Part shown: positions 6,882 through 32,095 of the stretch, in pieces
Layout of the letters: each line of letters begins with the position of its first letter
How positions within the stretch are numbered: the first letter of the stretch is position 1
Assembly (NCBI RefSeq): GCF_000504205.1
Contig: NZ_AZAJ01000001.1
Location: 2,392,879-2,456,878, forward strand
Length of the DNA stretch: 64,000 nucleotides
Source: Methanolobus tindarius DSM 2278
GTDB lineage: Archaea; Halobacteriota; Methanosarcinia; Methanosarcinales; Methanosarcinaceae
Direction: 5' to 3'
The notes under the pieces: generated by a model
What the model was told of the DNA's origin: nothing
Database searches by the model: none
The model's input: the letters and a program-made list of their open reading frames with translations, nothing else
Made by a program: the position numbers and the translations under genes

Positions 6882-6955
6882 TAAGCCCCTGGAGAGATTC
6901 GAACCCTCGGCCTGCTGATTACGAATCAGCCGCTATACCGCTAAGCCACAGAGGC
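6882..6955. repeat. Left attachment repeat (74 bp)
   Basis: Direct repeat identical to 32022-32095. Identity stops sharply on both sides: GTAAG against CTAAG on the left, GGCTTGC against GGCAAAA on the right. This is the expected product of site-specific integration, but it spans the entire tRNA instead of only its 3' part. Confidence 0.9.
6884..6955 (-). tRNA. tRNA-Thr(CGU), left copy (att)
   Basis: On the minus strand a 72-nt cloverleaf can be drawn: acceptor GCCTCTG pairs with CAGGGGC; anticodon arm GCTGA-TTCGTAA-TCAGC gives anticodon CGU; T arm GAGGG-TTCGAAT-CTCTC. The discriminator is U and no CCA is encoded. The sequence equals the right copy at 32024. Its 5' flank is element DNA and shows no TATA box at the expected distance, so this copy is probably the att duplicate and may be silent. 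Confidence 0.88.
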
Positions 6956-7004
6956 TTGCGGGTTTTGCATTGAATGAGCGCTCAAAATCGACCTCCGTCA
7001 TCAA

Positions 7005-7022
7005 GGTTCAAATCCCTCTTTT
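7005..7022 (+). repeat. T-arm-like inverted repeat, left arm
   Basis: GGTTCAAATCCCTCTTTT occurs 50 bp inside the left tRNA repeat. Its near-perfect reverse complement (17 of 18) lies just inside the right tRNA repeat at 31994-32011. The GGTTCAAATC core resembles a tRNA T loop. Candidate recombinase arm sites or remains of an earlier att site. Confidence 0.6.
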
Positions 7023-7037
7023 CACGGATGGTTATTA

Positions 7038-8084
7038 ATGGAGATGGGAATTTATCGATTGAATCTTGCAAGGCGTATAGAAAAATTGAAACAATCTGAC
7101 ATATCGGATACGAATAAAAGCCTTATTCAAAGTTTTGTGCATTTTTGTGTGGTTACTGGTATTGGTGAGCATAGGATTCTCAAATATATTTCTACGCTGA
7201 AATGCATAGCAATCAGCATTCAAACCGATTTTGATAAAGTTGACCTTGAATGTCTTCAGTCATATGTTGCAACCCTTGAGCAATCGGATTATAGTGAGCA
7301 TACAAAGCACGATTACAAGGTCACCATCAAGAAATTCTATAGATGGCACTACGATGACGAAAACCCTAAACTCATCAAATGGATAAAAGCTAGAATCAAC
7401 ACTAAGCGGTGTAAATCGCCGGAAGCAGTTCTGAATGAACCAGAAGTACTTCAACTCATAGATATATCATCAAATCGTCGTGATAAGGCTCTTATCGCTC
7501 TTCTGTGGGACATTGGAGGGCGTATTGGAGAGATTGGTACATTGCTAATTAAGCATGTTCTTTTTGATGATATGGGGGCTGTCATTCATGTCAACGGTAA
7601 AACGGGTCCTAGAAGGGTGCGAGCAGTATTCTCCGTTCAGTATCTCAAGGAATGGATTTCCGAGCATCCCGGTAAAGATGACCCGGAGGCTCCACTGTGG
7701 ATTAAATTAAATTCTGGTAGTAAAGTTGTTATGCTTCAGTACGGTGCCATCAGGATGCAACTAATTAAAATTGCTAAACGAGCAGGCACAAATAAACGAA
7801 TTCATGCACATCTATTCAGACATAGCCGGGCCACTCATATGGCGAATTATCTAACAGAATTTCAGATGTGCCAATATTTTGGATGGACCCTTGGCTCTGA
7901 CATGCCAGCTACGTATGTTCACCTGTCAGGTCGTGACGTGGATGATGCGGTTCTTAAGGCAAATGGTGTGAAGCAAGGTGAAAGTTCCTTTATGAATGAG
8001 TATATGGGGAATTTGGATGTATCTGATATTGATGTGTTGGTGGAGCAGAAACTGAAATCGATGATGTTGAAATTATTGACTTAA
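7038..8084 (+). CDS. Tyrosine recombinase (integrase)
   Basis: A 348-residue site-specific recombinase expected to integrate and excise the element at the tRNA-Thr gene. An N-terminal SAM-like core-binding domain (about 1-125) precedes the catalytic domain. Catalytic residues can be read: Arg in GGRIGE (near 160), Lys in NGKTGPRR (near 190), HLFRHS (near 258), and the nucleophile in ATYVHLS (near 293). The usual second H/W before the Tyr appears as GWT. It starts 83 bp from the left att repeat, the usual integrase position, with a possible SD (GGATGG) before ATG 7038. The gene is intact and not split by att, so it is not of the SSV type that is disrupted on integration. Confidence 0.92.
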   Translation: MEMGIYRLNLARRIEKLKQSDISDTNKSLIQSFVHFCVVTGIGEHRILKYISTLKCIAISIQTDFDKVDLECLQSYVATLEQSDYSEHTKHDYKVTIKKFYRWHYDDENPKLIKWIKARINTKRCKSPEAVLNEPEVLQLIDISSNRRDKALIALLWDIGGRIGEIGTLLIKHVLFDDMGAVIHVNGKTGPRRVRAVFSVQYLKEWISEHPGKDDPEAPLWIKLNSGSKVVMLQYGAIRMQLIKIAKRAGTNKRIHAHLFRHSRATHMANYLTEFQMCQYFGWTLGSDMPATYVHLSGRDVDDAVLKANGVKQGESSFMNEYMGNLDVSDIDVLVEQKLKSMMLKLLT

Positions 8085-8189
8085 TCATCTTTTCTTACCA
8101 TATTCAAAACTTGTTTTATTATCATGTAAAATTAGCGAAATGATATGCCGTTTTTTAACTGTACTTTTTTTCTTCTTTCATTTTTTGAT

Positions 8190-8202
8190 AATCCGTATAC
8201 CT
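8190..8202 (+). promoter_or_regulatory. 13-bp element motif, copy 1
   Basis: AATCCGTATACCT. Identical copies occur at 14536-14548 and 31906-31918, all intergenic and all inside the element. Here it lies 45 bp upstream of the TATA box at 8248 that should drive the RHH and helicase genes. Candidate operator for an element regulator. Confidence 0.6.
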
Positions 8203-8247
8203 AACAATCTCACATTAGTCTATGTAAGTTTTCTACAGAAGGATACT

Positions 8248-8258
8248 TTTATATATAA
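8248..8258 (+). promoter_or_regulatory. TATA box for RHH-helicase operon
   Basis: TTTATATATAA, a strong archaeal TATA-like sequence. Transcription would start about 25 bp downstream, close to the ATG at 8271. Confidence 0.6.
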
Positions 8259-8270
8259 CTTAAACAAGCA

Positions 8271-8336
8271 ATGATGTCGACTGATATCGTTTTTGCCAAA
8301 ATGTATTTATTTGAATACGAGGATTATAACATGTGA
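8271..8336 (+). CDS. Possible 21-residue leader peptide
   Basis: A short ORF (MMSTDIVFAKMYLFEYEDYN plus a final M) begins where the TATA box at 8248 predicts the transcript start, so it could be translated leaderless. It ends in TGA at 8334-8336, four bases before the ATG of the RHH gene at 8341, which has no well-placed SD. Termination-reinitiation coupling is possible. No homology claim is made. Confidence 0.3.
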   Translation: MMSTDIVFAKMYLFEYEDYNM

Positions 8337-8340
8337 TAAA

Positions 8341-8499
8341 ATGATAAGAAGACATAACAGAACTTTTACTATTGACATAGTTCTAGATGACAAAATAAAC
8401 GACATAAAAGGCAATCACAGTCGTTCTGATGTAGTAAATAAAGCCCTAGCTCACTATTTTGAAAGCATTTACAATGAAGAAAAAGTAAATAATAATTAA
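8341..8499 (+). CDS. Ribbon-helix-helix regulator
   Basis: A 52-residue protein with the pattern of a CopG/Arc-type ribbon-helix-helix DNA-binding domain: a short basic start, the strand FTIDIVLDD, then helices KINDIKG and SRSDVVNKALAHYFESI. Such proteins commonly control copy number or early promoters in plasmids. The frame is open upstream to a TTG at 8293, but ATG 8341 leaves exactly the RHH fold. It is the first gene before the helicase and lies downstream of 13-bp motif copy 1, so autoregulation through that motif is an attractive but untested idea. Confidence 0.7.
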   Translation: MIRRHNRTFTIDIVLDDKINDIKGNHSRSDVVNKALAHYFESIYNEEKVNNN

Positions 8500-8515
8500 T
8501 CCTAAAAAGATGCGT

Positions 8516-8541
8516 AGCCGTCGTCTTTGCCCACAACGGCT
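8516..8541 (+). other. Hairpin before helicase gene
   Basis: AGCCGTCGT and ACAACGGCT can pair (8 of 9 positions) around an 8-base loop, between the RHH stop and the helicase ATG at 8559. It could limit translation of the helicase or partly terminate transcription. There is no T-run after it. Confidence 0.45.
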
Positions 8542-8558
8542 GCAAGCGAGTTGACTAT

Positions 8559-11162
8559 ATGCTAATTGATTTTGACAGATATAAACATTTTCCCATTCAT
8601 GATTCTAGACTTGAGATAGCTTACAAGCTTGTGAATTCATGTAACATTGGTGATTTACTTAAAATATGCAAAACAACCAGAGCGGGAGCTACGACTTCAT
8701 TATTGGTTGCACTATTAATGCTGAATCAGCCTTTTTTAGTGTTGGAGCCAACTAATAAAATTATAAAAGAAACAATCATTAAAAACGTAGCTAAACATAG
8801 TAAAAAAAATGTGCAAATAATACATGTCCCTTCAAATAAAGAATGCATCCGCAACAAACTCAAAATTGAAAATAACAAGGCTTTAGAGGCACTTCCTTAC
8901 TTATTCTTGCCCACAGACTGTGGAAAGGATTGCAAATATTATAATGAATGCCCAGTGACACAAATTCTGCGAGTTGAACGTTTTGATGGCATAGCGATGA
9001 CCTACGATAAACTCCTTGCACTGAAAATAAGTTCTGAGCTCTATGGAAATAAAACTTCTATAGAAATATTATCAAAAATAGAAAATGCAATCAAATTTAT
9101 TTTATTGGATGAAGCTCACGAGTTGATGTATGATACAATATCAAGTTTGGAAAAGAGAAACACGCATAACCGTGCCTTTGCTGAAAATCTCTATCGCAAA
9201 TTTAAAAAAATAAATGATATGAATTATAATCCAGATTTTCAGATTTTAAGACTGCTGATTTTGAATTATGCTTTACTTATAAATGAGCCTGATATTAAAA
9301 AAATAGATGATGAATTATTGCAAATGTTAAGAGATGATAAAAGACCTACATTTCAAAAACATCAATCAGCCTCTATTAAAAATCCACGTTCAAGAACTGT
9401 ATTTCACTGTGCAATTAAGCCAAAAAATGAAGATGATTTAATATCAGGAGACTTCTGCAAAAATGGATTCTTTATAGGAGAACTTACCGAAAATAGATGT
9501 CAAGAAGCTTATTTTAATATTTATAACCAAATAATCCAGCTTGCTGATTACACCAAAAAATTCGATATCACGGTTGAAGATTTGACCGCTTTATGTGACA
9601 TGCTGAACCTTGAAATTGAGGAAAATCTCTCTGTCCATTGTCAACAAAAAAGAAAAATAAAGATGATAGGCGATAAGCGTCTTGAGTTCTGGGAGGAGCA
9701 CACTGACCTTTGTGCTGTGGACAAAAATAAAATCAGAATGCTTCAGCAATTCATTACAACAATACAAGATAAAACCAGCATACTAGTCACATCTGCAACG
9801 TTTTGTAGTTATGATTATTCCCAGCTATCACATCCTGAAAAAACTGTTCGAGAAGTCTTGTTCGGGATAAATGGAGACCCACTCAACACGAATTCTAAAC
9901 TGACCATCTTCGCAGACACATACACGTTCTCAGCTACAGGGGAATATTCAGTCTACAACCGCCGGGAGGAAATCAAACAACGATGCCAAGATGTCATGGA
10001 CATATATGGCGACGACGACTGTTTGATTATCTGTGCTAATAAAGAAGATTCCAAGTTGATAAAAAACCTCTTCGAAGATACTGAATACAATCCCGAGATT
10101 ACTTATTACAGAGCCTCGGAAGTTATGGGTGTTGAATCTTCAAAAAGAGTTTGTATTCTCATCGGTCTCGCCCACAAACCCGGCCATGCTTTTGATGTAA
10201 TGCGAGGCACTGCTAATGAAAGTCAAATTCTAAAAGAAGAATCAATGCATGCGGATGTGATGCAAGCTGCTTCCCGTGTTAAGGACCCAGCCGGACTTGA
10301 GCCATCAATTGTCTTTGCTCTCGGATGCCGGGAATATGACCTCAATAATGTGTTCAAATGGGGAATCGGAAGGGATGTTCATATTACCCAATCTGGAGGC
10401 AAAACCGTCCGCAAAGATATCGATGTAACCATCTCCGGCGATGAGATACCTCAACCTAACATCAAATACCTTCACGATTGGCAGGAAACTCTCGTTGAGA
10501 GTATACTTTGCAAAGAATCTTTGTATTCTTATGCCAAAAAATTACCATTATTATCTAATGTATATGGTACTTTTCAGGCTTATCAATACAAAATAAATTC
10601 TAAAAGTAATCTATTCGACTCATTCTTTGGACACCAAAACGTGGATACGTCTATACGAAACAGCGACGGCAGTTTCACCAAACCGGAATTGATTACAGAT
10701 GAGCTTGTCTCCAAGCACTTGAGTGAAAAGATAGAACTCCACTTCAACTCACTCCAGCCTGACAACTCCGTCAATTTCGTCATGTTTGAGTCCTTCAATG
10801 AACAGGACATTCATCGCCTGAAGATTCATCTCGACAGCATGGAAATCCCCTACGTCATCGAAAAGCTGGTTCCCTATGTCAATATCTCCATTAGACCAGA
10901 CCCTCTACGTGTCTGGATACTGCTTGAACCTGTTCCGGCAAGTCTTGCAAACCAGTTTGCTAAGAACCTATTGAAGCAAGCCGGGTTCAAGGTAAGAGGT
11001 GATAAAGAGATTGACTTCTATCCGAAAAAAACAAAAAGGAATCCTCGCAACAAAGGTGCACGCATTCGAATGCCATTCGGAAAGGGCTCAAAAATTCTTG
11101 TGGATGGTGAATTTGTTGATGATTTTGAGGAACTGAACTTTGGAAATCTCATACTCACCTGA
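8559..11162 (+). CDS. Fe-S SF2 helicase fused to AEP-primase-like domain
   Basis: An 867-residue protein, probably the element's replication protein. The N-terminal part resembles XPD/DinG superfamily 2 helicases: a P-loop-like TTRAGATTS near residue 40, a Cys cluster (C near 95, then CGKDCKYYNEC near 120-131) suggesting a 4Fe-4S site, LLDEAHEL near 182, VTSATF near 409, and a motif VI-like QAASRVKDP near 569. The C-terminal 130 residues (RVWILLEPVPASLANQF, then IDFYPKKTKR, then ARIRMPFG) follow the motif order of archaeo-eukaryotic primases, including the TOTE-type primase. Oddities: the Walker A Lys is replaced (GAT for GKT), and the DxD of primase motif I is not apparent (FVMFES stands there). 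It may be a DNA-binding or structural relic of primpol. Family assignment is from motifs only. Confidence 0.75.
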   Translation: MLIDFDRYKHFPIHDSRLEIAYKLVNSCNIGDLLKICKTTRAGATTSLLVALLMLNQPFLVLEPTNKIIKETIIKNVAKHSKKNVQIIHVPSNKECIRNKLKIENNKALEALPYLFLPTDCGKDCKYYNECPVTQILRVERFDGIAMTYDKLLALKISSELYGNKTSIEILSKIENAIKFILLDEAHELMYDTISSLEKRNTHNRAFAENLYRKFKKINDMNYNPDFQILRLLILNYALLINEPDIKKIDDELLQMLRDDKRPTFQKHQSASIKNPRSRTVFHCAIKPKNEDDLISGDFCKNGFFIGELTENRCQEAYFNIYNQIIQLADYTKKFDITVEDLTALCDMLNLEIEENLSVHCQQKRKIKMIGDKRLEFWEEHTDLCAVDKNKIRMLQQFITTIQDKTSILVTSATFCSYDYSQLSHPEKTVREVLFGINGDPLNTNSKLTIFADTYTFSATGEYSVYNRREEIKQRCQDVMDIYGDDDCLIICANKEDSKLIKNLFEDTEYNPEITYYRASEVMGVESSKRVCILIGLAHKPGHAFDVMRGTANESQILKEESMHADVMQAASRVKDPAGLEPSIVFALGCREYDLNNVFKWGIGRDVHITQSGGKTVRKDIDVTISGDEIPQPNIKYLHDWQETLVESILCKESLYSYAKKLPLLSNVYGTFQAYQYKINSKSNLFDSFFGHQNVDTSIRNSDGSFTKPELITDELVSKHLSEKIELHFNSLQPDNSVNFVMFESFNEQDIHRLKIHLDSMEIPYVIEKLVPYVNISIRPDPLRVWILLEPVPASLANQFAKNLLKQAGFKVRGDKEIDFYPKKTKRNPRNKGARIRMPFGKGSKILVDGEFVDDFEELNFGNLILT

Positions 11163-11347
11163 AACACCACTCAATAACGTGCAGATTACTGGAAATTCTC
11201 AGGAGGGAGGTGGAATCGCTATATAATGACAATCATCTTGCTACAATCCTCTACGTTTTATTGGAAACCTGCCTGATATATTACCTAGACATTATGCCTC
11301 CAAAAAAATAAATACCCATATACCTTATAAAATTCTGGGGCAATTCT

Positions 11348-12268
11348 GTGACTAATCTTGTAGATGATATTTATTTAGAAGTTGTATCTGCTGTTATATC
11401 TGCTATTATCTTAGTATGTTTTAATTTTGTATATAAATATATAATAACAAAGTACCGTTTACCTGTTTTCTCATTACAAATATTGGATTCGAAAAATCAT
11501 TCAAAAAATTTAGTATTAAAAGAATTAAAAGAAAACATAAATTATAATGAGTATTTTGTCCTATTTCGGGATATAAAAAACAAATCTAAACTGAAAGGTT
11601 CTAGTTCATTCACATTAATTTCAATAATTGTTTCCATAAGTGCTTATATTTACATAATTCATTATTTTGATGAATACATTGATTTCTGGAATCGTGATTT
11701 CTGGAATTTTGTTTCATATGGTTTTTTGATGTTGAATTCACTTGGACTTGCCATCACAGCATCAGGCTCTATAGTTATCCTGATATTTGTAGCAAAATTT
11801 TATCAAAAATCAAAAAGTGCTACTGAAAGGTTACGTACTTTGTCTGGATATATTCTAAATCTACTTGACGGAATCAAGCTCTATTTCTTTGTGAGTAATT
11901 TATTCCATTTGCTTCTAATAGTTTTACTAGTTAAAAATTCGGATATTTTTTACTCTCATAATCTAACTGGTTCTGTTATTGTCAGATTAATAATATCTTT
12001 CTTTTTCATTATTAGTTCACGATACTGGCTAAGCATTCTTAAAAAAGTGTATATTATTGCTGTACAAAATGAGATTAATAATCTGGTGTTAACTAATTGT
12101 CCCTCTATTAGAATCACCACACATCAAACGGAGATAGGAGGAAAAGTAAAAGATATTTTTGATGAAAAATTCATTGTACTTGATGATGGAGGCTATAAAA
12201 GCATTACAAAATGGGAGGACATAAGAGGAATACGTATCATTGAAGATGATGGAATTGGATATGGGTGA
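11348..12268 (+). CDS. Membrane protein, paralogue of gene at 5796
   Basis: A 306-residue protein starting at GTG 11348. Hydrophobic segments are seen near residues 8-30, 95-113, 124-155, 180-200 and 215-232. The C-terminal cytosolic-looking domain (EIGGKVKDIFDEKFIVLDDG, then SITKWEDIRGIRI) matches that of the gene at 5796 just outside the element. The small beta-rich tail could be an SH3-like or PRC-like barrel; this is a guess. It follows the helicase gene after 185 bp on the same strand. Function is unknown. AT-rich codon use is like the rest of the element. Confidence 0.75.
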   Translation: MTNLVDDIYLEVVSAVISAIILVCFNFVYKYIITKYRLPVFSLQILDSKNHSKNLVLKELKENINYNEYFVLFRDIKNKSKLKGSSSFTLISIIVSISAYIYIIHYFDEYIDFWNRDFWNFVSYGFLMLNSLGLAITASGSIVILIFVAKFYQKSKSATERLRTLSGYILNLLDGIKLYFFVSNLFHLLLIVLLVKNSDIFYSHNLTGSVIVRLIISFFFIISSRYWLSILKKVYIIAVQNEINNLVLTNCPSIRITTHQTEIGGKVKDIFDEKFIVLDDGGYKSITKWEDIRGIRIIEDDGIGYG

Positions 12269-12565: not shown

Positions 12566-13036
12566 ATGACGAAACTGAAAATATTGCGCCTGCTTCAGCA
12601 TCAGGAGATGAAACCCAAAGAACTGGCACAGGAAATCGGCTTACAAAAGGTATATTCACATATTCGCAGCTTGAAAGACATGAGTCTGATTGAGAAGCAA
12701 AACAACAAATATCGTCTGACACCCAAGGGTATTGAATACCTTGAAAAGGGTGATTTCAGCGAAATCCTGCCACCGAAACTCTATGTAGATGACCTCACAG
12801 CCTTCATGTTGAAGCATGACAGACCAATGACAGCACGAGAGCTTCATGAAGCATTGCAAGACCCAAGGACGTTGCCGGATTTCCGGGCGTGGTTGAGTCA
12901 TCTGATACGAAGAAAGTATATCACAATCGACAAAACCCGGAGCGTGAGCACCTATCAAATCACAGCACGTGGAAGATTACATGGGGTTAATGGTGCTGAG
13001 TTCAGAAAACAAAGACATTGGACACGACTTTATTGA
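12566..13036 (+). CDS. Winged-helix DNA-binding protein
   Basis: A 156-residue protein with an N-terminal winged helix-turn-helix (KILRLLQHQEMKPKELAQEI, recognition helix VYSHIRSLKDMSLI, wing KNNKYRLTPKGIEYL) and a second helical unit (DRPMTARELHEAL, then FRAWLSHLIRRKYI, then VSTYQITARGRLHG) that looks like another winged helix. It is therefore probably a tandem wHTH transcription regulator. An AT-rich TTTTTAAA about 25-30 bp before the ATG fits a TATA box and a near-leaderless transcript. It is one of several regulators of the element; targets are unknown. Confidence 0.75.
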   Translation: MTKLKILRLLQHQEMKPKELAQEIGLQKVYSHIRSLKDMSLIEKQNNKYRLTPKGIEYLEKGDFSEILPPKLYVDDLTAFMLKHDRPMTARELHEALQDPRTLPDFRAWLSHLIRRKYITIDKTRSVSTYQITARGRLHGVNGAEFRKQRHWTRLY

Positions 13037-13190: not shown

Positions 13191-14075
13191 ATGAAATCAT
13201 TCAGAGATGGAACATTAAAATGGGCTATTTTGAACTATATACTCAACCATCCTGAATGCACCAGTCAGGATATTGCAAACCATGTCCAACATAGCAGCAT
13301 TAAGACTCTGCGTAGCGAAATCTATTATCTCCGCCGTTATGGTGGCTTCATTTCTGCTGACAAAAGCAGTATACCGCACCGTTTAACACTTTCGAAGTCA
13401 GGTAAAAATGAAACTCAGCAAGGTCCATATTCTGTGCAGATTAAGCGTCAGAAACGCCAAGAACGTATACTTGCGATGGTTTCTGCGATACTCAATGATG
13501 ATGAAAAGTTCGCTGAAGCTGTGAATGACGAAGTGGAAAAGGAAGTCAAACAGCGTATGAAAGAGATTGAATCCGGTGTCCGGGAAGCTCCTACGATAGT
13601 TGAGACCATTGAATCGAAGACTGACACTGAACTCAGGAAAGAGATTGAGAGCAAGGACATGCGTATTCATGAGTTACAGGCCCAAATCCAACATCTCCGG
13701 CTTCACAAAGCCAATGTCCCAACCCGTGCACCACCTGTTCAGAAATCACCTGAAGAGCAGAAAGCAGATGCAGAGAGAAGGCAACGAAGAGAACAACTTT
13801 CAATGAGGTATAGAGGAATGTTGCTGGATGCTCCTTTCTTTCACCATTGGAAAGACATGTTTCCCTTCCGTATGAAGCACTTGCAACTATACAAGGAAGG
13901 AAGTGTAGAAATCATGTCACCATCAAACCCAGAGCACCGAAGGGGTCATGCACGCCGTCCATTGAATCCGGCTGAGGTCATAGGTGGAAAGTATCACATT
14001 GTCAAGATGACAAAGCAAGGAATAGTCATTGAGGGTATGGGCCTTCCGGGTGGTCAAGCTTCATTACGATGGTAA
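13191..14075 (+). CDS. wHTH plus coiled-coil protein
   Basis: A 294-residue protein. Residues 1-65 form a winged-helix-like domain (LKWAILNYILNHPECTSQDI, then IKTLRSEIYYLRRYGGFIS, then HRLTLSKSGK). Residues 80-165 are highly charged with heptad spacing and should form a coiled coil (EVEKEVKQRMKEIESG, ELRKEIESKDMRIHELQAQI). A Pro-rich link follows, then a C-terminal segment rich in Arg/His with a GGKYHIV strand. Architecture suggests a DNA-binding protein that oligomerises, for example a replication/partition accessory or nucleoid-type protein (inference). Two tiny ORFs follow at once in the same direction. Confidence 0.7.
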   Translation: MKSFRDGTLKWAILNYILNHPECTSQDIANHVQHSSIKTLRSEIYYLRRYGGFISADKSSIPHRLTLSKSGKNETQQGPYSVQIKRQKRQERILAMVSAILNDDEKFAEAVNDEVEKEVKQRMKEIESGVREAPTIVETIESKTDTELRKEIESKDMRIHELQAQIQHLRLHKANVPTRAPPVQKSPEEQKADAERRQRREQLSMRYRGMLLDAPFFHHWKDMFPFRMKHLQLYKEGSVEIMSPSNPEHRRGHARRPLNPAEVIGGKYHIVKMTKQGIVIEGMGLPGGQASLRW

Positions 14076-14606: not shown

Positions 14607-15086
14607 ATGACAAATGAAGGAATCCACCAAGACAACTTCCACCGAGCTGAACAAGAACTCGTTGATTTGAAGAAATATTGGCACATGCTCGCTTGGTGGG
14701 AGCGAGATATGTCACTAGACGCTGTTTTTGATTATATTTCAGACATTGAAGAGCTTCCAGAGTATGCAGCTAGATGTGCTATAATGCAGGAGGTTGCTGA
14801 GGAATTGGCATTTAAGAATGAATCCAATTATCCCTCAGATGCTGAACTTGCAGCAGACAAGGATATGAAGCTGTATTACATGGGAAAACCACGCCTCTCT
14901 CATGGTCATGCTGTAAAAATCTTGAAAGCATTCACGCCAGAACAGGTCGAAGCGATTTGTTTTGATGAACCAGAGTATACTGTTGACACTATCATTGATG
15001 CAATGTTTCGGTCTACAGCTGCGTTTTTTGCTGTAAGAAATTCAATCGGACATGTATTCCAGCCTAGCCAAACAGTTTTCAGTTAG
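14607..15086 (+). CDS. Acidic helical protein, unknown
   Basis: A 159-residue soluble acidic protein, mostly helical by composition (QELVDLKKYWHMLAWWERDM, EYAARCAIMQEVAEELAF). It shows no motif I can name. It has its own promoter (TATA 14577) with 13-bp motif copy 2 upstream, so it is one of the genes most likely under the element's own control. It could be an anti-host or regulatory factor, as many such singleton ORFs are, but nothing in the sequence proves it. Confidence 0.6.
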   Translation: MTNEGIHQDNFHRAEQELVDLKKYWHMLAWWERDMSLDAVFDYISDIEELPEYAARCAIMQEVAEELAFKNESNYPSDAELAADKDMKLYYMGKPRLSHGHAVKILKAFTPEQVEAICFDEPEYTVDTIIDAMFRSTAAFFAVRNSIGHVFQPSQTVFS

Positions 15087-17277: not shown

Positions 17278-17976
17278 ATGGCAGCTAAGAGGAGAAAAAG
17301 AAAATCTGATGATGAAGAAATTGACCCGGTAGCAGTTGCAATTGCTGCTGTGATTTTTGCAGTGTATTTTGTTTACACAAAATATCTGTTACCGTTGTAC
17401 GAAGCATTCATGTCATTGTCACCTGTTTACATCTTTTTGATTACCCTGATAGTTGCTGTCACAGTTCTTGTTGTTATCAACTATATCTTCAAGTATCGCA
17501 GGATGAGAGCAGAGAAAAAGAAAGAACGCCGTAAGCAGCAAATCATTGCAAGGGGTGTTGAATTTGATAATACTATCAAGTTCCTAGAAAACGAAATTAA
17601 ACTTCGTTATGGTAAAAAGAAGATTGAGAAGGACTATCAACAGGATTTGGAACAAGCCATGAAGGTCTTGACCGACAGACATGGTTACAAAATCGAATAT
17701 GAAAGAAGCCACTCCAAAAAACATAGGATTGATTTGGTGATAAATGACTCTATTGGTGTTGAAATGAAGGTCTATAAGGGTGGGTCACAGGTCAAAAGAG
17801 CACTACTTAGTCAAATCTCAGAGTATTCTCAGTACTGTGACAAAATTATCGGATTTGTGGTCAATGTGACCGAAGAGAGCAACGAATCTATCAAATCTGA
17901 TATCGAATCTCAACTCAAGTTTCAAAAGGTTATTGACCCGAATGACTATCACATCATTGTTCACGGGGTCATCTAA
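17278..17976 (+). CDS. Membrane-anchored PD-(D/E)XK nuclease
   Basis: A 232-residue protein. A basic N-terminus is followed by two hydrophobic helices (about residues 20-40 and 48-69), a Lys/Arg-rich link, a helix, and a C-terminal restriction-like fold: HRIDLVINDSIGVEMKVYKG places Asp near 151 and the E-x-K pair near 161, the usual catalytic set. Helix QVKRALLSQISEYSQYC follows, then a strand IIGFVVN. Endonucleases tied to the membrane by two helices occur among restriction and defence proteins; whether this one protects the host, excludes rival elements or processes DNA is not shown. SD and TATA support the start. Confidence 0.75.
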   Translation: MAAKRRKRKSDDEEIDPVAVAIAAVIFAVYFVYTKYLLPLYEAFMSLSPVYIFLITLIVAVTVLVVINYIFKYRRMRAEKKKERRKQQIIARGVEFDNTIKFLENEIKLRYGKKKIEKDYQQDLEQAMKVLTDRHGYKIEYERSHSKKHRIDLVINDSIGVEMKVYKGGSQVKRALLSQISEYSQYCDKIIGFVVNVTEESNESIKSDIESQLKFQKVIDPNDYHIIVHGVI

Positions 17977-18122
17977 AATGTTTCATTTGGCATGAGAACT
18001 TCAGTTTCGATGATTGAAAGAAGTTCAGTCTTTGAACGAAACAGTTTCACCCTGCTTAGATTATGCGTATATGATGTCAGTCAAATGATAGTAGTTAACA
18101 ACTTAAAAATACGGTGACTGAC

Positions 18123-19292
18123 ATGGTTAAGTTTGAATACGCATTCGATTCTCAAGGGAAAATACACTACATCAACAATCTTTACAAAGGTCACAATCTT
18201 GGTCCATTCACATGTATCACATGTGGGGAACCTATGAAAGCTAGACCTGGAAAAGGTGTCGATAAAGGTGGAAACACCCCTCATTTTGCACATAAATCGT
18301 CATCATACAACCATGCTGATGAATCTGAATTGCATTATAATACCAAGGCATATCTATCCCTGAAACTAAATGAGATACTTGATTCCAATGACAAAAATGA
18401 ATTCATAATCAACGTTTTCTGCAATGACTGTAATTCAACCAAGAGGGCATCTTTGCTTTATGGTCTTGATGATGAATCGATGAAATCATTAAAGTTAGGT
18501 AATTATTCAAATAATCTTCATGAACAGCCAACAACACACAATTTTGAATATAATTTACTCCAAGATGTCACCAGTGTGAAGCCGGAAAAGAAAGTTGACA
18601 ACTTTGTACCTGATGTTTCACTATACCACGGTGAGGCTCTAATAAAGGCGATAGAAGTCGTTTACACTCATGAAGATGAAGATGTGAAAGTGCAATACTA
18701 CAGGAACGAAAAGATAGATGTTGTGCGGGTTTATGTTAAAACAGATGATGACTTGAGAGACTTAGAAAATGGTATATTGGACATGATTGAAGTTGAACTG
18801 AACCGTACTGTGTGTCAGTTTAAGTCACCTATAAGCAAAGATGAGATGTCTATCAATTTGTATTTTAGAAGCATGCAGTATTACCGATACATACGGGAAA
18901 TATTTGAGCCATTTTTCTCTAAAATGGATGATTACATCAATAGAGCTTTAATATCGAACAGAAAAGTGAATCTCAAGAAGATATTCAGTGATGAAAGCAA
19001 ATCTAATAGCAAAACAACAAGCGATTCCGAACTTCATGAGATAAGAAAACCTGATAACAAAATAAAAAACGATTCCGAACTTTACGAGATGATACGTAAA
19101 TACCGGAAAGCTCGTAGGACTGCTGCACTAACATCTTATGACGTACAAGAATTCATGGATGAAAACCCACATAGCGATATTGACCCTAAAAACGTGGATA
19201 GACTCATAAAAATGGGGAATGCATGTGGATGGGGATATTTCGTAAAAGCCATCGAGCATTATCACAAATATAAGCCATACAACAAATATTAG
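18123..19292 (+). CDS. CoiA-like nuclease with GNACGWG C-terminal module
   Basis: A 389-residue protein. ATG 18123 is preferred because GGTG lies six bases before it. Near residues 30-60 it has the CoiA-type zinc/HFAH start (CITCGEPMKARPGK, then PHFAHK). A PD-(D/E)XK-like core follows with NFVPDVSLY (Asp near 165) and KAIEVVYTHE (Glu near 180), lacking a clear Lys. After a charged linker with a small internal repeat (DSELHEI / DSELYEM) comes a C-terminal module of about 65 residues, ELYEMIRKYRKARRTAALTS through GNACGWG, that also exists as a separate gene at 25169. CoiA proteins act in DNA uptake or processing in bacteria; here the role is unknown. Confidence 0.75.
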   Translation: MVKFEYAFDSQGKIHYINNLYKGHNLGPFTCITCGEPMKARPGKGVDKGGNTPHFAHKSSSYNHADESELHYNTKAYLSLKLNEILDSNDKNEFIINVFCNDCNSTKRASLLYGLDDESMKSLKLGNYSNNLHEQPTTHNFEYNLLQDVTSVKPEKKVDNFVPDVSLYHGEALIKAIEVVYTHEDEDVKVQYYRNEKIDVVRVYVKTDDDLRDLENGILDMIEVELNRTVCQFKSPISKDEMSINLYFRSMQYYRYIREIFEPFFSKMDDYINRALISNRKVNLKKIFSDESKSNSKTTSDSELHEIRKPDNKIKNDSELYEMIRKYRKARRTAALTSYDVQEFMDENPHSDIDPKNVDRLIKMGNACGWGYFVKAIEHYHKYKPYNKY

Positions 19293-19678: not shown

Positions 19679-20674
19679 TCAGAGCCAACGTAATTCCTTT
19701 TCAGTGATATTAATCAACAAAAATTGTGATGGTTTATTAAGTGTGATATTTTCTGCACCATAGTGCTCATAAATCATTCCATCATAACTCGATTTAATAT
19801 TGTAATAGGCATCTTTATGCATACCCAAGTTAATAGTGAGTGGAATCGAATCATTTGTCACCAAGTCTCGTTTATATCCCAGCACGGGAACTTCAGTATT
19901 GTTGTAGACCATGCTGACAAATACATTTGCTCCATTTACAGATTCATTGTTTTCCTCTACTTGGATATTCAACTGACATGTATTATTGACATAATTCGCA
20001 GTACAATCTGTAAAATAAGTGTTGTTTTCAATAACGCTCACATGTCCAATTAAAAACTTAGATTTAGATGTAAAATGGGACTGATTATCTTTTGGATACC
20101 ATAAATGAAAACCGGAGTCGGCAATTCTCCATCCATTATCAATCCAAACTTCGGACCATGCGTGGTCTCCACTCGAATTATCTCTTGTATTGATGAATCC
20201 TTCCATTTCCATGTGTCGATATGTTAGTCCACATCTTTCTACCATATCCTCAAAGATAATGGCACGCTCACCACAGTTTGCACTTCCTAAATAGACAAAC
20301 CACTTTGAATCATGATTGTTCAATCGAAAAATTGCAGTATAGCGATTGAATCGTTTTAAATCAACATTATCACTGTTTTCCCATTCAATAATATGCTGAA
20401 CAATTTCAGACTCGTTCTCTGAATACTTACATATTGTTGTACTTGTGTCATCCAAGTATGATTCCATTTGGGGTTCAATATAAAATTGATAGAAAGGACC
20501 ATAATAGACAATATATGGAAAAGCAAAAACTAAAATCAGAAGTATAAATGCATTACGAAACCCTAAATAAACTCCTTGAGCTATGTCTTTTTTTGTTACC
20601 TTAAATGCGTTTTTATCTTGTGTATTATTAATTTTGTCAAGAAGATAAGCTTTAAATTCATTAAAAAGAGACAT
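19679..20674 (-). CDS. Transglutaminase-like membrane protein
   Basis: A 331-residue protein with one membrane helix near residues 40-58 (AFILLILVFAFPYIVYY) and a large, probably extracytoplasmic domain. It has the transglutaminase/protease triad order: Cys in GSANCGERA (near 133), His in GDHAWSEVW (near 170), Asp in WRIADSGF (near 186). The last 100 residues are beta-rich with several N-x-S/T sites (ENNTYF, YVNNTCQL, NITEKEL), consistent with an S-layer-side location. Archaeal transglutaminase-like proteins may act as peptidases or cross-linking enzymes on surface proteins. It could alter the host envelope for the element (inference). Confidence 0.78.
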   Translation of the reverse strand: MSLFNEFKAYLLDKINNTQDKNAFKVTKKDIAQGVYLGFRNAFILLILVFAFPYIVYYGPFYQFYIEPQMESYLDDTSTTICKYSENESEIVQHIIEWENSDNVDLKRFNRYTAIFRLNNHDSKWFVYLGSANCGERAIIFEDMVERCGLTYRHMEMEGFINTRDNSSGDHAWSEVWIDNGWRIADSGFHLWYPKDNQSHFTSKSKFLIGHVSVIENNTYFTDCTANYVNNTCQLNIQVEENNESVNGANVFVSMVYNNTEVPVLGYKRDLVTNDSIPLTINLGMHKDAYYNIKSSYDGMIYEHYGAENITLNKPSQFLLINITEKELRWL

Positions 20675-22663: not shown

Positions 22664-24022
22664 ATGGGTGGACACGTGCATAAAACAATAGAATCGATTA
22701 GAAGAATTGACTTGCGTTTATTTTTAGCGTTGCTTTTGACTGGATTGTTACCAACAATATACACTACGGTACGCATATTTTTCCTTGGAAACCTTCCAAA
22801 TGATTGGGGAATCAACATTGCTTCACAACTTATGTGGGTAAATCTTCTTTACGAAATATTGCAGGAATCCTTAATTCTACCACTGTACTTCATACTTGGT
22901 AAGGCAATATCAAATACTGAAGAGTTCACTAATCGCCTGAAAGGCAGCATGGTAATAGTGTTCTCAATATATCTCACACTCTCAGCATTGATATCAATAT
23001 TTGCCGAACCTATGGTAGTAGCGATGGCACAAAATTCTGCATTGGTAGATGCTACAGTGTCATACATACGTCTGGAAACAATAGCATACATCTTTCTGAC
23101 AATGTGGAAATTCTTGATGCTCATACTTCTCTTGATTGGAAGAGATAAACTGATTTACATCATGCTCACGGTTCAGATGATTCTTACTGTACTATTGGAT
23201 ACATTGTTCATCTCAGAATTTAGTTTTTCATTACAGCTAGGTGTTAATGGTATCGCAATAACCAACATTATCGTAAATATTGTTCTACTTGCAGTCTTTT
23301 TCATATTACTCAAGAAAGAAAAGAATATCAATATCTTCCAAAGGAAGAAATTGAACTTTGCTTGGGTCAAACAATGGACAACAATCGCAGGTTATTCCGG
23401 TCTTGAGACTTTGGTTCGAAACCTGGCATTTATGTATATGGTAGTTCGAATGGTAAACATCATCAATGAGCCGGGAACTTTCTGGGTCACTAATAGTTTT
23501 ATCTGGGGATGGTTGCTTCTTCCAGTACTGCAACTGAGCGAGTTGATAAAAAGTGATTGTTCAAAGGATGAAGAGAACATAAAACTGAATTTCAGAGGAT
23601 ATGTAGGAGTCACAACAATAATAATTGCAATATGGCTTGTGACAATACCATTGTGGGAGCCGTTCATTAAAAATGTGCTAAATATGAGCAACTATGAAGT
23701 GATATCCCACTTGGTGATGATATCACTACCTTTCTACATCCTATTTGCATATAACAACATCATAGATTCAATCTTTTATGGAATAGGTAAAACAGAGTAC
23801 ATGTTGTTCCAATCAGTATTTGTGAATGTCACATTTTATGGTACTCTTTTCATCCTTTTCCAAAAGGGTATATACGTCCCTACATTGGAATTAATCACAT
23901 TGATGTTCGCAGCAGGAATTGCAGTAGATTCATTGCTCACTTTTGTAATGTATTGGTACTTATCGAAGAAAGGTAAGATAGTACACAAGTATGAGCTGAC
24001 TGTTCCATTGGTTACAGATTGA
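22664..24022 (+). CDS. MATE-like membrane exporter
   Basis: A 452-residue polytopic membrane protein with about 12 hydrophobic segments, the length and two-bundle layout of the MATE/MOP flippase superfamily. Typical elements include the first-bundle QxxxxNLLYEIL-like segment, GVNGIAITNIIVNIVLLAVF in helix 6 and the related second half. Members export drugs or lipid-linked compounds using ion gradients. It is cargo of the element with no partner that reveals a substrate. The start is uncertain: ATG 22664 has no good SD, only AAGGAAA about 30 bp upstream. Confidence 0.72.
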   Translation: MGGHVHKTIESIRRIDLRLFLALLLTGLLPTIYTTVRIFFLGNLPNDWGINIASQLMWVNLLYEILQESLILPLYFILGKAISNTEEFTNRLKGSMVIVFSIYLTLSALISIFAEPMVVAMAQNSALVDATVSYIRLETIAYIFLTMWKFLMLILLLIGRDKLIYIMLTVQMILTVLLDTLFISEFSFSLQLGVNGIAITNIIVNIVLLAVFFILLKKEKNINIFQRKKLNFAWVKQWTTIAGYSGLETLVRNLAFMYMVVRMVNIINEPGTFWVTNSFIWGWLLLPVLQLSELIKSDCSKDEENIKLNFRGYVGVTTIIIAIWLVTIPLWEPFIKNVLNMSNYEVISHLVMISLPFYILFAYNNIIDSIFYGIGKTEYMLFQSVFVNVTFYGTLFILFQKGIYVPTLELITLMFAAGIAVDSLLTFVMYWYLSKKGKIVHKYELTVPLVTD

Positions 24023-25168: not shown

Positions 25169-25429
25169 TCACACATTAAAGACTTGAAAGTGTCTGAATG
25201 CCTGCATATGGTTCTCAAAATGCTCACAGGCAATGTCATAAGTTCCCCACCCGCAAGCATTTCCAAGAATGATGTTCTTCAGCACTATGTCGGGAAGCAG
25301 GTCAGTTGATTGTGTTTCAATGAAGGACTGAACGTCAAGTGAGGTCAGTGCACCGGTTCTTTTGTTCTTTCGGTATTCATTGATTCGGTCATAAAGTTCA
25401 TTTTCACTCTGGATGGTTGTGTCATTCAT
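25169..25429 (-). CDS. Stand-alone GNACGWG module
   Basis: An 86-residue protein almost entirely made of the module that ends the CoiA-like nuclease at 18123: ENELYDRINEYRKNKRTGAL, TSLDVQSFI, then GNACGWGTYDIACEHF, against DSELYEMIRKYRKARRTAAL, TSYDVQEFM, then GNACGWGYFVKAIEHY. The module is helical with an invariant-looking N-A-C-G-W-G turn. The same module both fused and free in one element implies a shared partner or a regulator/antagonist relation (inference). No known domain name comes to mind. Confidence 0.68.
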   Translation of the reverse strand: MNDTTIQSENELYDRINEYRKNKRTGALTSLDVQSFIETQSTDLLPDIVLKNIILGNACGWGTYDIACEHFENHMQAFRHFQVFNV

Positions 25430-26107: not shown

Positions 26108-26151
26108 AGTAGCAGCTCCTATCATTTTAAGGCAAAATTAGGTGGTTCTGT

Positions 26152-27217: not shown

Positions 27218-27361
27218 ATGACCAAGGAAAATAGAGCACAATCGGTAGTCCCGGAAGGACATAGAACCGGCGGATTACCTACCAGTGAGGAATTCGAGCG
27301 ACTATTGCCGGTTGTTTTGAATGAAAACAAGGAGCTAATTGAAGCCCTTGCAAGGAAGTGA
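27218..27361 (+). CDS. 47-residue ORF with E-E-F / KELIEAL tail
   Basis: The frame is open further upstream, but ATG 27218 gives a compact protein ending PTSEEFERLLPVVLNENKEL, IEALARK. The same ending occurs in the next gene (NRAEFEKLLPIVIEENKDL, IEALSKK), so the two are duplicates of one helical module. Its TGA is four bases before the GTG start of the next gene, implying coupled translation. Confidence 0.5.
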   Translation: MTKENRAQSVVPEGHRTGGLPTSEEFERLLPVVLNENKELIEALARK

Positions 27362-27365
27362 TAAC

Positions 27366-27713: not shown

Positions 27714-27740
27714 ATTTAGTATTGATATCACTGTTCTTTA

Positions 27741-28583
27741 TCACATGTATTCATCATCATGGAACATGTCTTCTGCCATGCTTTCCAGTATTGATATTGT
27801 AACAGGCAGAGTTTCAGAATCAATAATCTCATTAACGTCATACAGGTGCAAAATTCCGTGTCTGGAGAAGTAGACTCCAATTTTATCTATGGTTGAGCCA
27901 TCTATCTTTTCTTCCCCGATTCCGCCTATGACTCCAAGAAGGTAATAGCCCACGATTTGGTTAAAAATGTCCCTTGTCACTGATAAGTTCTTGGTGGTCT
28001 TTATGTCTATCATCATGTTATCAATGACTAAATCAGCATCAGCACCACCTACAAGGTAAGAACCTTCATTGAATATTGGGTTCAATAAACAATGCTTTTT
28101 AGCCTTGAATAGGTCGAAATCAACAATGCTGATTAGGTTTTTGAGGTCTTGGATGTCTTCAGGTTCAATCTGCATTGGAATATCATATACATCCCTTCCT
28201 GCTCTGTAATACATATCGAGGTGTGCCAGCATCAGAGACGATTTCAGTAAATCATCGGTGAGTATACCATCATTCAGGAACTGATTATATGCATTTGTTG
28301 CAAAATCAAGGTCATTCTTCGCTTTTGCGTAATACTCAACGGATTCACGCTCTTCCATTCTGGCACAGGCTCCTTCTGCAACCCATCTATCTGTGATTGC
28401 ATCAGGATTGTGGTATTTCAGGTGAAATCGCATAAGATAGTCAAATGCAGTGCCAATCATAGGGGGCTTATTTGTCAGAAGTGGTGCTTTGATTTCACCG
28501 GCAATTTTACCTCTTGGCTTCTGGAATTCATCTGCAAATATTGCCTTTACGTCCTTATCCTTCAGAAAATCAGTTAAACTCAT
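27741..28583 (-). CDS. RecB-like PD-(D/E)XK nuclease
   Basis: A 280-residue protein of the RecB/Cas4-like PD-(D/E)XK class. Motif set: MIGTAFDYLMRFHL near residue 42 (the helical entry motif), GGADADLVIDNMMIDIKTTK with Asp near 185 and D-x-K near 195, followed by the helix FNQIVGYYLLG with the typical Q-x-x-x-Y. No helicase domain or 4-Cys Fe-S cluster is present. It could serve element recombination or defence. It is convergent with the 27366 gene and divergent from the membrane-protein gene at 28706. Confidence 0.75.
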   Translation of the reverse strand: MSLTDFLKDKDVKAIFADEFQKPRGKIAGEIKAPLLTNKPPMIGTAFDYLMRFHLKYHNPDAITDRWVAEGACARMEERESVEYYAKAKNDLDFATNAYNQFLNDGILTDDLLKSSLMLAHLDMYYRAGRDVYDIPMQIEPEDIQDLKNLISIVDFDLFKAKKHCLLNPIFNEGSYLVGGADADLVIDNMMIDIKTTKNLSVTRDIFNQIVGYYLLGVIGGIGEEKIDGSTIDKIGVYFSRHGILHLYDVNEIIDSETLPVTISILESMAEDMFHDDEYM

Positions 28584-28705
28584 GCAGGATTATATATTTT
28601 GCAAGAATATATAATTTGTTAAAAAGTTTCACTTATAAATCTGGTAGCCGTAAACAATATGGATTATTAAAAAAGTATATCTGTCTACAAAGAATCTTTA
28701 CTAAC

Positions 28706-29737: not shown

Positions 29738-29825
29738 GTATCACACAATTCAGAATTCATCTTTTTCCCTTTTTGATAAGCTGAACCTATATTGATACTA
29801 GGGATAATCGATAACATTACACATA

Positions 29826-30884
29826 TTGATTGTAACTTATCGAATAGATTCGAATCACTTCGAAATAAATAAGTATATAAGTAACCCTTTTAGGTATGTG
29901 GGAAATAACAACATAAATGAAAGTCTAGCTCTCAACATCACAATGAACGTGGTGCTTATCACTGCAATCTCGGTCTTGATGAAGAAAGATTTCTTCGATG
30001 ATGTGTTATACATTGCTGCTATAGCTGAATTCTATGGCCTGTCACTAATTTTACTGGTGTTGTTTTATGTTGCACTGGAATTGAAAGGAATAAACCATTT
30101 TGAACAGAGAATGGACTTTTACACAAAGGGTCTATTGATTAACCTTGCAGTTGCTTGTCTTGTACTAGGTGCAAGCATGTACCCGCTGGTATTGTATACA
30201 GTAGGTGGACAAGGGTTGTTTGTTTTTGCCATAACAGCCCTTGTACTCGTTAACATATCAATTCCTTTCCTAATGTTTCTCTCTGTATTGGGTAGAATCA
30301 TGTATGATATCGGAACTGGGAGTGGAGAGAGGTATCTGAAAATGTCAAATGATAATCGTAAAAGAAGTTGGAATATGAATAAATATATCGGAAGAAAAAG
30401 AGGATTTGTATATACTTTTGCAACGTATCTCCTAATATTAGTGATACTTTTCTCCGCTCGTTCCATAATTCCTTTTGTTTCTGATTTATCAGATATTGCA
30501 ACAATTGTGATACTCACAATAACGGCAATAATCTACTTACTTCAAAATCATCTAAATTTTAATAACCATTTAGAGTTACTTGATTCAACATATAGGATAA
30601 AGCAGCTTGAAGAACTCTACATGCCATTATACAGTGTTTCACCTGATTTCTGGAAACTTGATGTTAAGGAGATAGAGAGATTTTCATACCTTGCATCAGA
30701 TGAATTAGGTCAAATGGTGCAAATGGATGATAAAGAAATCTCCCTTATTGATAAATTCATCAAATACCTCAAGTCACCGGATGATTTCACATTTCATGAG
30801 AAGAATGAAGTCTATGAAAAGGTTGCAAGTGCAATTGAGGAAGATATCAAGTTATTAAAAAAGGATTTGAATATACATTTATAA
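29826..30884 (+). CDS. Polytopic membrane protein, unknown
   Basis: Up to 352 residues with about six hydrophobic helices in three pairs (near 38-55, 63-85, 104-128, 135-155, 195-215 and 222-240) and a helical cytosolic C-terminus (about 250-352) rich in Glu/Lys. The start is uncertain: TTG 29826, GTG 29898 or ATG 29943 are possible. A TATA-like AAGTATATAAG around 29869-29879 points to a transcript start near 29900, which favours one of the later codons. It follows the single-TM gene on the same strand, but this internal promoter suggests separate control. Confidence 0.6.
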   Translation: MIVTYRIDSNHFEINKYISNPFRYVGNNNINESLALNITMNVVLITAISVLMKKDFFDDVLYIAAIAEFYGLSLILLVLFYVALELKGINHFEQRMDFYTKGLLINLAVACLVLGASMYPLVLYTVGGQGLFVFAITALVLVNISIPFLMFLSVLGRIMYDIGTGSGERYLKMSNDNRKRSWNMNKYIGRKRGFVYTFATYLLILVILFSARSIIPFVSDLSDIATIVILTITAIIYLLQNHLNFNNHLELLDSTYRIKQLEELYMPLYSVSPDFWKLDVKEIERFSYLASDELGQMVQMDDKEISLIDKFIKYLKSPDDFTFHEKNEVYEKVASAIEEDIKLLKKDLNIHL

Positions 30885-30995
30885 GGAAAGTAATACCCTT
30901 GTCAAATATCACCTTTTCTCTTCCAATTAAGCTGAATAGACACACAGGCATCCAGATATTGCCCTGTTCTCAAAGGATTATACACCCATTTTGTA

Positions 30996-31023
30996 ATGCA
31001 ACAGAAGGTACATTTTGTTGCAT
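30996..31023. promoter_or_regulatory. Inverted repeat upstream of second recombinase
   Basis: ATGCAACA (30996-31003) and TGTTGCAT (31016-31023) form a perfect 8-bp inverted repeat. A third TGTTGCAT lies at 31123-31130, ten bases before the recombinase ATG and between its likely TATA (about 31110) and start. Candidate operator or recombinase arm sites. Confidence 0.55.
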
Positions 31024-31140
31024 TTTATTATTAAAGTTGATTTTGCGTGTTTTTTAAAATCCAGGTACCTGAAAGCCTTTAATTTTTGAATTAAAGGGCG
31101 TAGGAAACTTTTTTAATGTAGTTGTTGCATTTTCATAACT

Positions 31141-31719
31141 ATGTACTCGAAAGAATGGCTAAGAGTTGAGGAAATCGAAAGCATGCTTTCATTGCCTAAT
31201 CTCGAAGAAAAGTATGAGATTTGGATTCTTTTGCTCTACGTTCCAGCACTGAGGGTTACCGAGGCTATTAATGTCAGAGACCGAGACCTTGACCTTGAGG
31301 GTGAATCTATTGACATATGGAAGGGAAAAGGGAAAGACGGGTATATGGAGAAAGTACCTTGTGATATTGCTACCTTGAAACGAATCAAGAGGTATTCACA
31401 GCATAATAATCTCAGACCAAACGACTACATAATGTTTAGCAACAAATCCGGCAAAGTGCACCGAAGCCATGTTTACAAGGTTGTGAACAAGATATTGCAA
31501 CAGGTCAACCCGGATAAGACGATTGGAACACACACCTTCAGAAGGTCCAGAGCACAGCATCTATTGGACTCAGGACTGCCATTGGTCTATGTTTCGAAGC
31601 TGTTGAGACATAAGAACCTGTCAACCACTATGCATTACTTGAACGTCTCTGTGACCGACATACAGCGTGAAATGGAGAAAATCAGTGACCCAATGGATAA
31701 GATTAGTGCTGTGATTTGA
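31141..31719 (+). CDS. Catalytic-domain-only tyrosine recombinase
   Basis: A 192-residue XerA/Int-type catalytic domain with all expected residues: Arg in ALRVTE (near 37), Lys in KGKGKDG (near 64), HTFRRS (near 132), LLRHKN (near 157) and MHYLN (Tyr near 166). The N-terminal core-binding domain is missing, and no coding sequence for it is seen upstream. No SD; the T-rich TATA-like sequence 30 bp upstream suggests a leaderless mRNA. It lies near the right end of the element. It could be an excisionase-like helper, a resolvase acting on multimers, or a competitor of the left integrase (all inference). Confidence 0.85.
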   Translation: MYSKEWLRVEEIESMLSLPNLEEKYEIWILLLYVPALRVTEAINVRDRDLDLEGESIDIWKGKGKDGYMEKVPCDIATLKRIKRYSQHNNLRPNDYIMFSNKSGKVHRSHVYKVVNKILQQVNPDKTIGTHTFRRSRAQHLLDSGLPLVYVSKLLRHKNLSTTMHYLNVSVTDIQREMEKISDPMDKISAVI

Positions 31720-31746
31720 TGTAGTTTTGAGCAAAGTAAATTCACT

Positions 31747-31848
31747 CTATTCTCTTGAATAATATTGAATTAATTCATCAATACTCTGTGAATTTGTTGA
31801 TTTAAGCAGATTGACAATTTTAATATCGAGACTTTCTGTCATGTTCAT
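31747..31848 (-). CDS. Possible 33-residue ORF
   Basis: Minus-strand ORF starting MNMTESLDIKIVNLLKSTN and ending in YYSRE. The hydrophobic spacing fits one amphipathic helix pair. It is convergent with the second recombinase. There is no SD and composition is AT-rich, so it could be chance. Confidence 0.25.
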   Translation of the reverse strand: MNMTESLDIKIVNLLKSTNSQSIDELIQYYSRE

Positions 31849-31905
31849 AATTTCATATCAGCACGCAATATTAAATCATGCAATAAATCAATATTATGAA
31901 TAGAA

Positions 31906-31918
31906 AATCCGTATACCT
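31906..31918 (+). promoter_or_regulatory. 13-bp element motif, copy 3
   Basis: AATCCGTATACCT, followed by a GGGGGG run and, 60 bp on, a TATA-like TTTATATA (31979-31986). It lies about 104 bp inside the right att repeat. See copies at 8190 and 14536. Confidence 0.55.
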
Positions 31919-31957
31919 TAGGGGGGAAAGATTTTTTGCACTTCGAAGCTGAAAGGG

Positions 31958-31979
31958 ATGTGGCCCAAGTAGGCCACAT
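31958..31979. repeat. Perfect inverted repeat near right end
   Basis: ATGTGGCC-CAAGTA-GGCCACAT, 8-bp arms with a 6-base loop, 43 bp inside the right att repeat. It may be a recombinase/accessory protein site or a terminator hairpin without a T-run. Confidence 0.55.
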
Positions 31980-31993
31980 TTATATACAAACTC

Positions 31994-32011
31994 AAAAGAG
32001 AGATTTGAACC
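31994..32011 (-). repeat. T-arm-like inverted repeat, right arm
   Basis: On the minus strand this reads GGTTCAAATCTCTCTTTT, matching 7005-7022 at 17 of 18 positions in opposite orientation. It also resembles the T arm of the adjacent tRNA (GGGTTCGAATCTCTC), with which it is in tandem. Confidence 0.6.
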
Positions 32012-32021
32012 CTTATTCGCC

Positions 32022-32095
32022 TAAGCCCCTGGAGAGATTCGAACCCTCGGCCTGCTGATTACGAATCAGCCGCTATACCGCTAAGCCACAGAGGC
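32022..32095. repeat. Right attachment repeat (74 bp)
   Basis: Identical to 6882-6955. The flank at and beyond 32096 is chromosomal and carries the tRNA promoter. Confidence 0.9.
32024..32095 (-). tRNA. tRNA-Thr(CGU), right copy, probably the active one
   Basis: Same 72-nt cloverleaf as the left copy, anticodon CGU, discriminator U, no encoded CCA. A TATA box (CTATATAAT on the plus strand at 32118-32126) sits 23-31 bp upstream of the 5' end. This copy therefore keeps the native promoter, with at least part of its 3' end supplied by the element. It faces away from Trm5. Confidence 0.93.

Follow-up and report, generated by a model that had tools for sequence, protein, structure and literature searches.

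Archaeal integrases mostly use the 3′ part of a transfer RNA (tRNA) gene as their attachment (att) site, and such sites can also span the D-loop and run past the gene (PMC8371274). In thaumarchaea, att sites are mostly under 26 bp (PMC6563490). Here we describe a 25.1-kb element of Methanolobus tindarius DSM 2278 that occupies positions 6882-32095 of a 64,000-nucleotide window (NZ_AZAJ01000001.1, positions 2,392,879-2,456,878; all coordinates below are those of the window unless a genome or locus is named) and has a complete tRNA-Thr(CGU) gene at each end. We consider it an integrative element of a known kind, whose attP carries an entire tRNA gene as an unusual variant (probability about 0.85).

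The element is bounded by two direct repeats of 74 nucleotides (nt) each (6882-6955 and 32022-32095), which are 100% identical, lie 25,140 bp apart, and were the longest repeat found in the region by a repeat search. ARAGORN identified each as a complete tRNA-Thr(CGU) gene on the minus strand, confirming what a preliminary description made from the sequence alone had claimed. This sequence has just two matches in the whole 3.15-Mb single-contig genome, and the identity goes no further than tRNA nucleotide 1, beyond which the two copies have unrelated upstream bases. Elements with tRNA-targeting tyrosine integrases typically have direct repeats that overlap a tRNA gene at either end, and the recombinases that the same description had placed at both ends are present as tyrosine recombinase genes at 7038-8084 (348 aa) and 31141-31719 (192 aa). 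Its AT-rich interior held against the right flank (about 36% versus about 42% G+C) but not against the left (about 37%). In a promoter weight matrix built from 19 congener promoters, the right copy scored 61.1 and the left copy -48.6, while for random 54-mers from the element the median was -35 and the highest score -0.6. The left copy is accordingly the displaced duplicate and has no promoter. The native promoter is thus retained by one restored tRNA gene, as in other elements that target tRNA genes.

Nearly all congeners have one tRNA-Thr(CGU) directly downstream of trm5. An empty site was found in three of them (G004, G005, and G022), where trm5, a single tRNA-Thr, and the Cache-domain gene follow one another in the same order, with 25 to about 2,500 bp between tRNA-Thr and the Cache-domain gene; the 25-kb interior is not at the tRNA-Thr locus in any of the three. 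The preliminary description had proposed a search for such a site, and the result supports its view of a single integrated element. None of the relatives was found to have two tRNA copies with nothing inserted between them, nor does the 25 kb correspond to any conserved chromosomal gene order. The site next to trm5 is an insertion hotspot, as many further congeners have unrelated DNA 3′ of this tRNA-Thr. Moreover, congeners have one of two markedly different 3′ parts of the tRNA, with CCGAGGGTTCGAATCTCTCCAGGGGCT or TCGGGGGTTCAAATCCCCCCGGRGGCT at the end, following near-identical 5′ parts and promoters, which is the trace expected from repeated integrations that exchange the 3′ part.

Two other observations concern the surroundings of this tRNA gene. 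An AT-rich stretch of 1.1 kb (5768-6881) just outside the left copy is not present beside the Cache-domain gene in the empty-site relatives, and its open reading frame (ORF) at 5796-6635 is a distant paralogue of the element’s membrane protein at 11348-12268; the stretch may have been left behind by a previous insertion at this tRNA. In the congener G024, the tRNA-Thr(CGU) next to trm5 is a pseudogene with an intact promoter, and beyond a 1798-aa histidine-kinase gene lies an intact copy that has a promoter of its own, tRNA function having moved to this distal copy (L057:11660-17804). This pair was considered as a further integrative element and rejected, as it encloses a histidine-kinase gene. 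Extra tRNA-Thr genes in these genomes can be displaced copies.

The 348-aa integrase gene is divergent from the left tRNA copy and lies 82 bp from its 5′ end. Its catalytic R/K/HxxR/W/Y residues are all present in an alignment, so that an integrase with the R-K-HxxR-H/W-Y set stands near one att site. The ORF is complete and outside the repeat, a layout different from that of SSV-type (suicidal, split) integrases. An inverted 23-bp pair (7000-7022 and 31994-32016), matching at 20 positions, flanks the att sites on the element side; none of 10,000 shuffles and about 6 of 5,000 real pairs reached this match, and a related motif precedes the integrase start in relatives. The pair resembles integrase arm sites, and we regard it as putatively such.

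We located the nearest integrase relatives in Methanosarcinaceae genomes and read the neighbouring sequence. Those that lack a C-terminal zinc ribbon, which when complete have about 348-358 aa, adjoin duplicated tRNA-Thr genes (CGU, UGU, GGU) in at least three other genera. For example, G054, of another genus, has two identical complete CGU copies 6.3 kb apart. G045, also of another genus, has two such copies 14.5 kb apart that are near-identical for about 66 bp further upstream as well; its integrase is frameshifted, and its element also carries the small recombinase. Similarly, in G024 two UGU copies lie 9.3 kb apart with two differences at the 5′ end and identity reaching 46 bp upstream, again with a frameshifted integrase. 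The arrangement of integrase and divergent complete tRNA recurs in G054, G045, and G024. In G002, with tRNA-Thr GGU, the displaced copy is full-length but decayed, its last 17 nt being intact, and in Methanosarcina sp. KYL-1 (G139), with UGU, the full-length displaced copy is interrupted in the T-loop by an insertion. In this KYL-1 copy (L157:7935-8038), about 34 nt with an inverted repeat replace the T-loop and the other positions are intact. Of the loci where both ends can be seen, six including the present element, every one has a full-length displaced copy. Relatives with a zinc ribbon, a sample of three integrases closely related to one another (G001, G040, and G002 at 2,384 kb), displace just about 22 nt, from the T-loop to the 3′ end (nt 51-72). 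Comparison of these sites is suggestive of an association between whole-gene att sites and integrases without a zinc ribbon, from few independent lineages. Further out in the family, integrases are arranged in the usual way, downstream of a tRNA-Thr, Ser, Arg, or Asp gene. No relative of the subgroup was found in IMG/VR.

These data suggest that the element entered the chromosome by site-specific recombination between the chromosomal tRNA-Thr(CGU) and an attP with a complete tRNA-Thr, a reaction that the integrase encoded beside the left copy would have catalysed. After integration, the copy next to trm5 would keep its native promoter and supply the tRNA, and the copy moved 25 kb away would be a passive duplicate marking the far end. 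Strand exchange probably occurs in the T-arm, the 5′ part of the displaced copy then being brought by the element: in G002 every difference between the copies lies within the first approximately 53 aligned positions, the last 17 being free of them (p about 0.01, hypergeometric, estimated by hand), and the sites of the sister integrases span 22 nt. Several facts weigh against this placement. Because the two copies do not differ at all, the present element itself gives no position for the crossover; a promoterless 5′ part carried by the element would be expected to decay, but in this element and in G054 it is flawless, which calls for recent capture, gene conversion, or an exchange close to the 5′ end; and in G024 and G045 the identity runs about 46-66 bp into the promoter. 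The same element and integrase could instead exchange strands at or near the tRNA 5′ end, in which case the functional tRNA body would be element-borne and the displaced copy would be the host original. Such an exchange would explain without a special capture step why the 74-bp identity ends at nucleotide 1, would make the decay of the displaced copies in G002, G024, and G139 the ordinary decay of an unexpressed gene, and has a precedent in the 5′-half att sites of pTN3-type integrases (PMC8371274). It fits poorly with the confinement of the G002 differences and with the sharing of just nt 51-72 by the sister integrases, and we regard it as possible but rather unlikely. Homologous recombination between the tRNA-Thr of a circular plasmid and the chromosomal gene, with the integrase as an incidental passenger, would have had 74 bp of perfect identity available. 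Methanogens of this group are polyploid and recombine efficiently. However, integrases of one subgroup adjoin tRNA-Thr or its displaced copy at several loci, in different genera and with different anticodons, which makes this route very improbable. Finally, two identical tRNA genes in one genome could reflect tandem duplication of the chromosomal tRNA region with no mobile element at all, but this is refuted by the empty sites in relatives, and an interior without synteny, recombinases at the ends, and a colinear relative elsewhere in the genome also speak against it; it can practically be dismissed.

A further question is whether site-specific integration brought in a plasmid-type element or a degraded provirus or satellite of a tailed virus. 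The latter is suggested by relatives of the 867-aa helicase/AEP-like protein, found in congeners and in three IMG/VR contigs: one adjoins terminase and head genes (contig L172), and another, in G005, adjoins terminase. Outside cellular genomes, the closest replication-gene relatives are in virus-classified contigs, one with tailed-virus genes. However, no terminase, portal, capsid, or tail family, as would mark a tailed provirus, was matched in the 25 kb, and the nearest relative of the protein (G013 contig 41, 39%) shares its loss of the primase motifs, so that a viral origin of this kind appears improbable. In an alignment, the DxD and sxH motifs of AEP primase-polymerases are lost in both of these proteins and kept in other relatives; because they are missing, priming by the 867-aa protein is not expected. 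The viral relatives are among those that keep the catalytic motifs. The protein found no match in plasmid and phage collections by protein search, nor did a scan of genome contigs with it alone, and its AlphaFold model, built with three sequences, had a mean pLDDT of 34.5. Family searches of the element’s proteins found no virion, partition, or conjugation genes in the 25 kb. A Pfam scan of the main ORFs found no VirB4/TraC-like ATPase, relaxase, or coupling protein, though divergent proteins could escape it, and the element interior had no megablast match among plasmid records. The plasmid-like gene set of the preliminary description is therefore borne out by the helicase/AEP-like gene and small regulators, but not by any partition or conjugation gene, and outside cellular genomes the replication gene has its closest relatives in virus-classified contigs.

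The element also has a close relative in its own genome. DNA and protein comparison identified a second element with a colinear backbone at about 1,234,700-1,256,150, in which the genes at 12566, 13191, 14607, 21327, 25169, and 27068 and the small recombinase at 31141 keep their order, the small recombinase lying at the right end in both. In the second element the backbone is preceded by a 545-aa recombinase-like gene and a helicase-like gene, both unlike those of the present element, and there is an apparent type I restriction-modification operon, these three being named by reading their protein sequences and not by family search. There is no tRNA gene near its region (G000:C1:1229226-1256150, L196-L198). 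Parts of the backbone also occur at three places in G007 and in G013 contig 41. Nothing in the literature examined contradicts the earlier suggestion that the element may be undescribed, but it belongs to a recurrent family that includes this colinear relative, a family of modular Methanolobus elements with two recombinases.

The 192-aa recombinase probably acts on its own dif-like site in multimer resolution or a similar local reaction, and not in tRNA integration. A similar dif-like sequence precedes its relatives in L122, L127, L128, L129, and L131. Another candidate for its site, the 13-bp motif AATCCGTATACCT (8190, 14536, and 31906), was rejected, as it recurs upstream of backbone genes elsewhere. 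Its copies share their orientation and also occur in the second element (G000:C1 1235227) and at the G007 loci; it is likely a shared regulatory site, judging from this distribution. The MATE gene has 80% DNA identity to a gene of another genus (G043:C1:1424470), which suggests recent transfer as cargo. These and the other features are listed in Table 1.

Table 1. Features of the tRNA-Thr(CGU) element and its flanks (window coordinates; PWM, position weight matrix; HTH, helix-turn-helix).
Feature	Position	Strand	Support
Cache-domain gene, flank of empty-site order	2797-5196		
Displaced complete tRNA-Thr(CGU), attL, promoterless upstream	6882-6955	-	promoter PWM -48.6
Putative integrase arm site (P side), inverted partner of 31994-32016	7000-7022	+	20/23 match
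Tyrosine integrase, 348 aa, without C-terminal zinc ribbon	7038-8084	+	Pfam PF00589, 1.8e-15
867-aa DEAH-type helicase with C-terminal AEP-TOTE-like domain	8559-11162	+	Pfam PF22548, 3.7e-7
306-aa membrane protein, C-terminus similar to ORF 5796-6635 outside element	11348-12268	+	
Winged-helix regulator, family backbone	12566-13036	+	
HTH/coiled-coil protein, family backbone	13191-14075	+	69% in second element of same genome
159-aa backbone protein	14607-15086	+	86% in second element of same genome
Membrane-anchored PD-(D/E)XK-like nuclease	17278-17976	+	Pfam PF13366
392-aa protein, weak CoiA_N-like N-terminus; C-terminal domain paralogous to 25169-25429	18114-19292	+	
Transglutaminase-like protein	19679-20674	-	homologue in G045 element
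MATE-family efflux transporter, cargo	22664-24022	+	NCBIfam NF045539, 565 bits
86-aa backbone protein	25169-25429	-	90% in second element of same genome
PD-(D/E)XK-type nuclease	27741-28583	-	phrog_34041; PDC-S61
352-aa membrane protein adjoining small recombinase	29826-30884	+	
dif-like palindrome TGCAACAGAA-GGTACA-TTTTGTTGCA, 6-bp spacer, upstream of small recombinase	30997-31022		
192-aa tyrosine recombinase, catalytic domain only, right end	31141-31719	+	Pfam PF00589, 1.3e-24
Putative integrase arm site (P′ side)	31994-32016	-	20/23 match to 7000-7022
Complete tRNA-Thr(CGU) on native promoter, attR, presumed functional	32022-32095	-	promoter PWM 61.1
Native tRNA-Thr promoter region with TATATA box	32096-32145	-	conserved in congeners
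trm5, flank of empty-site order	32163-33164		

The locus offers a precise, repeatable case of a complete tRNA gene as the attachment site of a mobile element, and it makes the questions of why integrases use tRNA genes, and of whether elements supply or replace host tRNAs, testable in culturable methanogens (Methanolobus, Methanosarcina). It is possible, though rather less likely than not, that the zinc-ribbon-less integrase subgroup uses whole-tRNA att sites and that its elements carry an isoacceptor-matched tRNA-Thr between hosts, which could replace the host tRNA (in G045 and G024, with its promoter). No direct description of whole-tRNA att sites or of Methanolobus elements was found in the literature. 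Among known systems, the helicase/AEP-like protein belongs to the same family as the helicase-primases of tailed archaeal viruses (neighbourhoods L172 and L074; 31-36% identity), but unlike them it lacks DxD and sxH and has no accompanying virion gene. As in the pT26-2 family of plasmids (PMC6972569), the att site includes the T-arm palindrome of the tRNA gene; that family consists of Thermococcales and Methanococcales elements whose att covers the 3′ part and averages 58 nt in Thermococcales. The present att reaches the tRNA 5′ end, as in pTN3-type integrases, which use the 5′ tRNA half; unlike in that type, att leaves the integrase gene undivided and the functional copy still has its own promoter. 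In layout the element resembles the classical elements with unsplit integrases (pNOB8, SNJ2, and PYG1; PMC8371274), with which it shares an intact integrase at one end, a tRNA gene as attB, a functional tRNA restored on its native promoter, and direct repeats at both ends, and from which it differs in that its att repeat consists of the entire tRNA gene, stopping at nucleotide 1. Overall, the type of integration is itself ordinary, and the new feature is the whole-gene att site common to an integrase subgroup.

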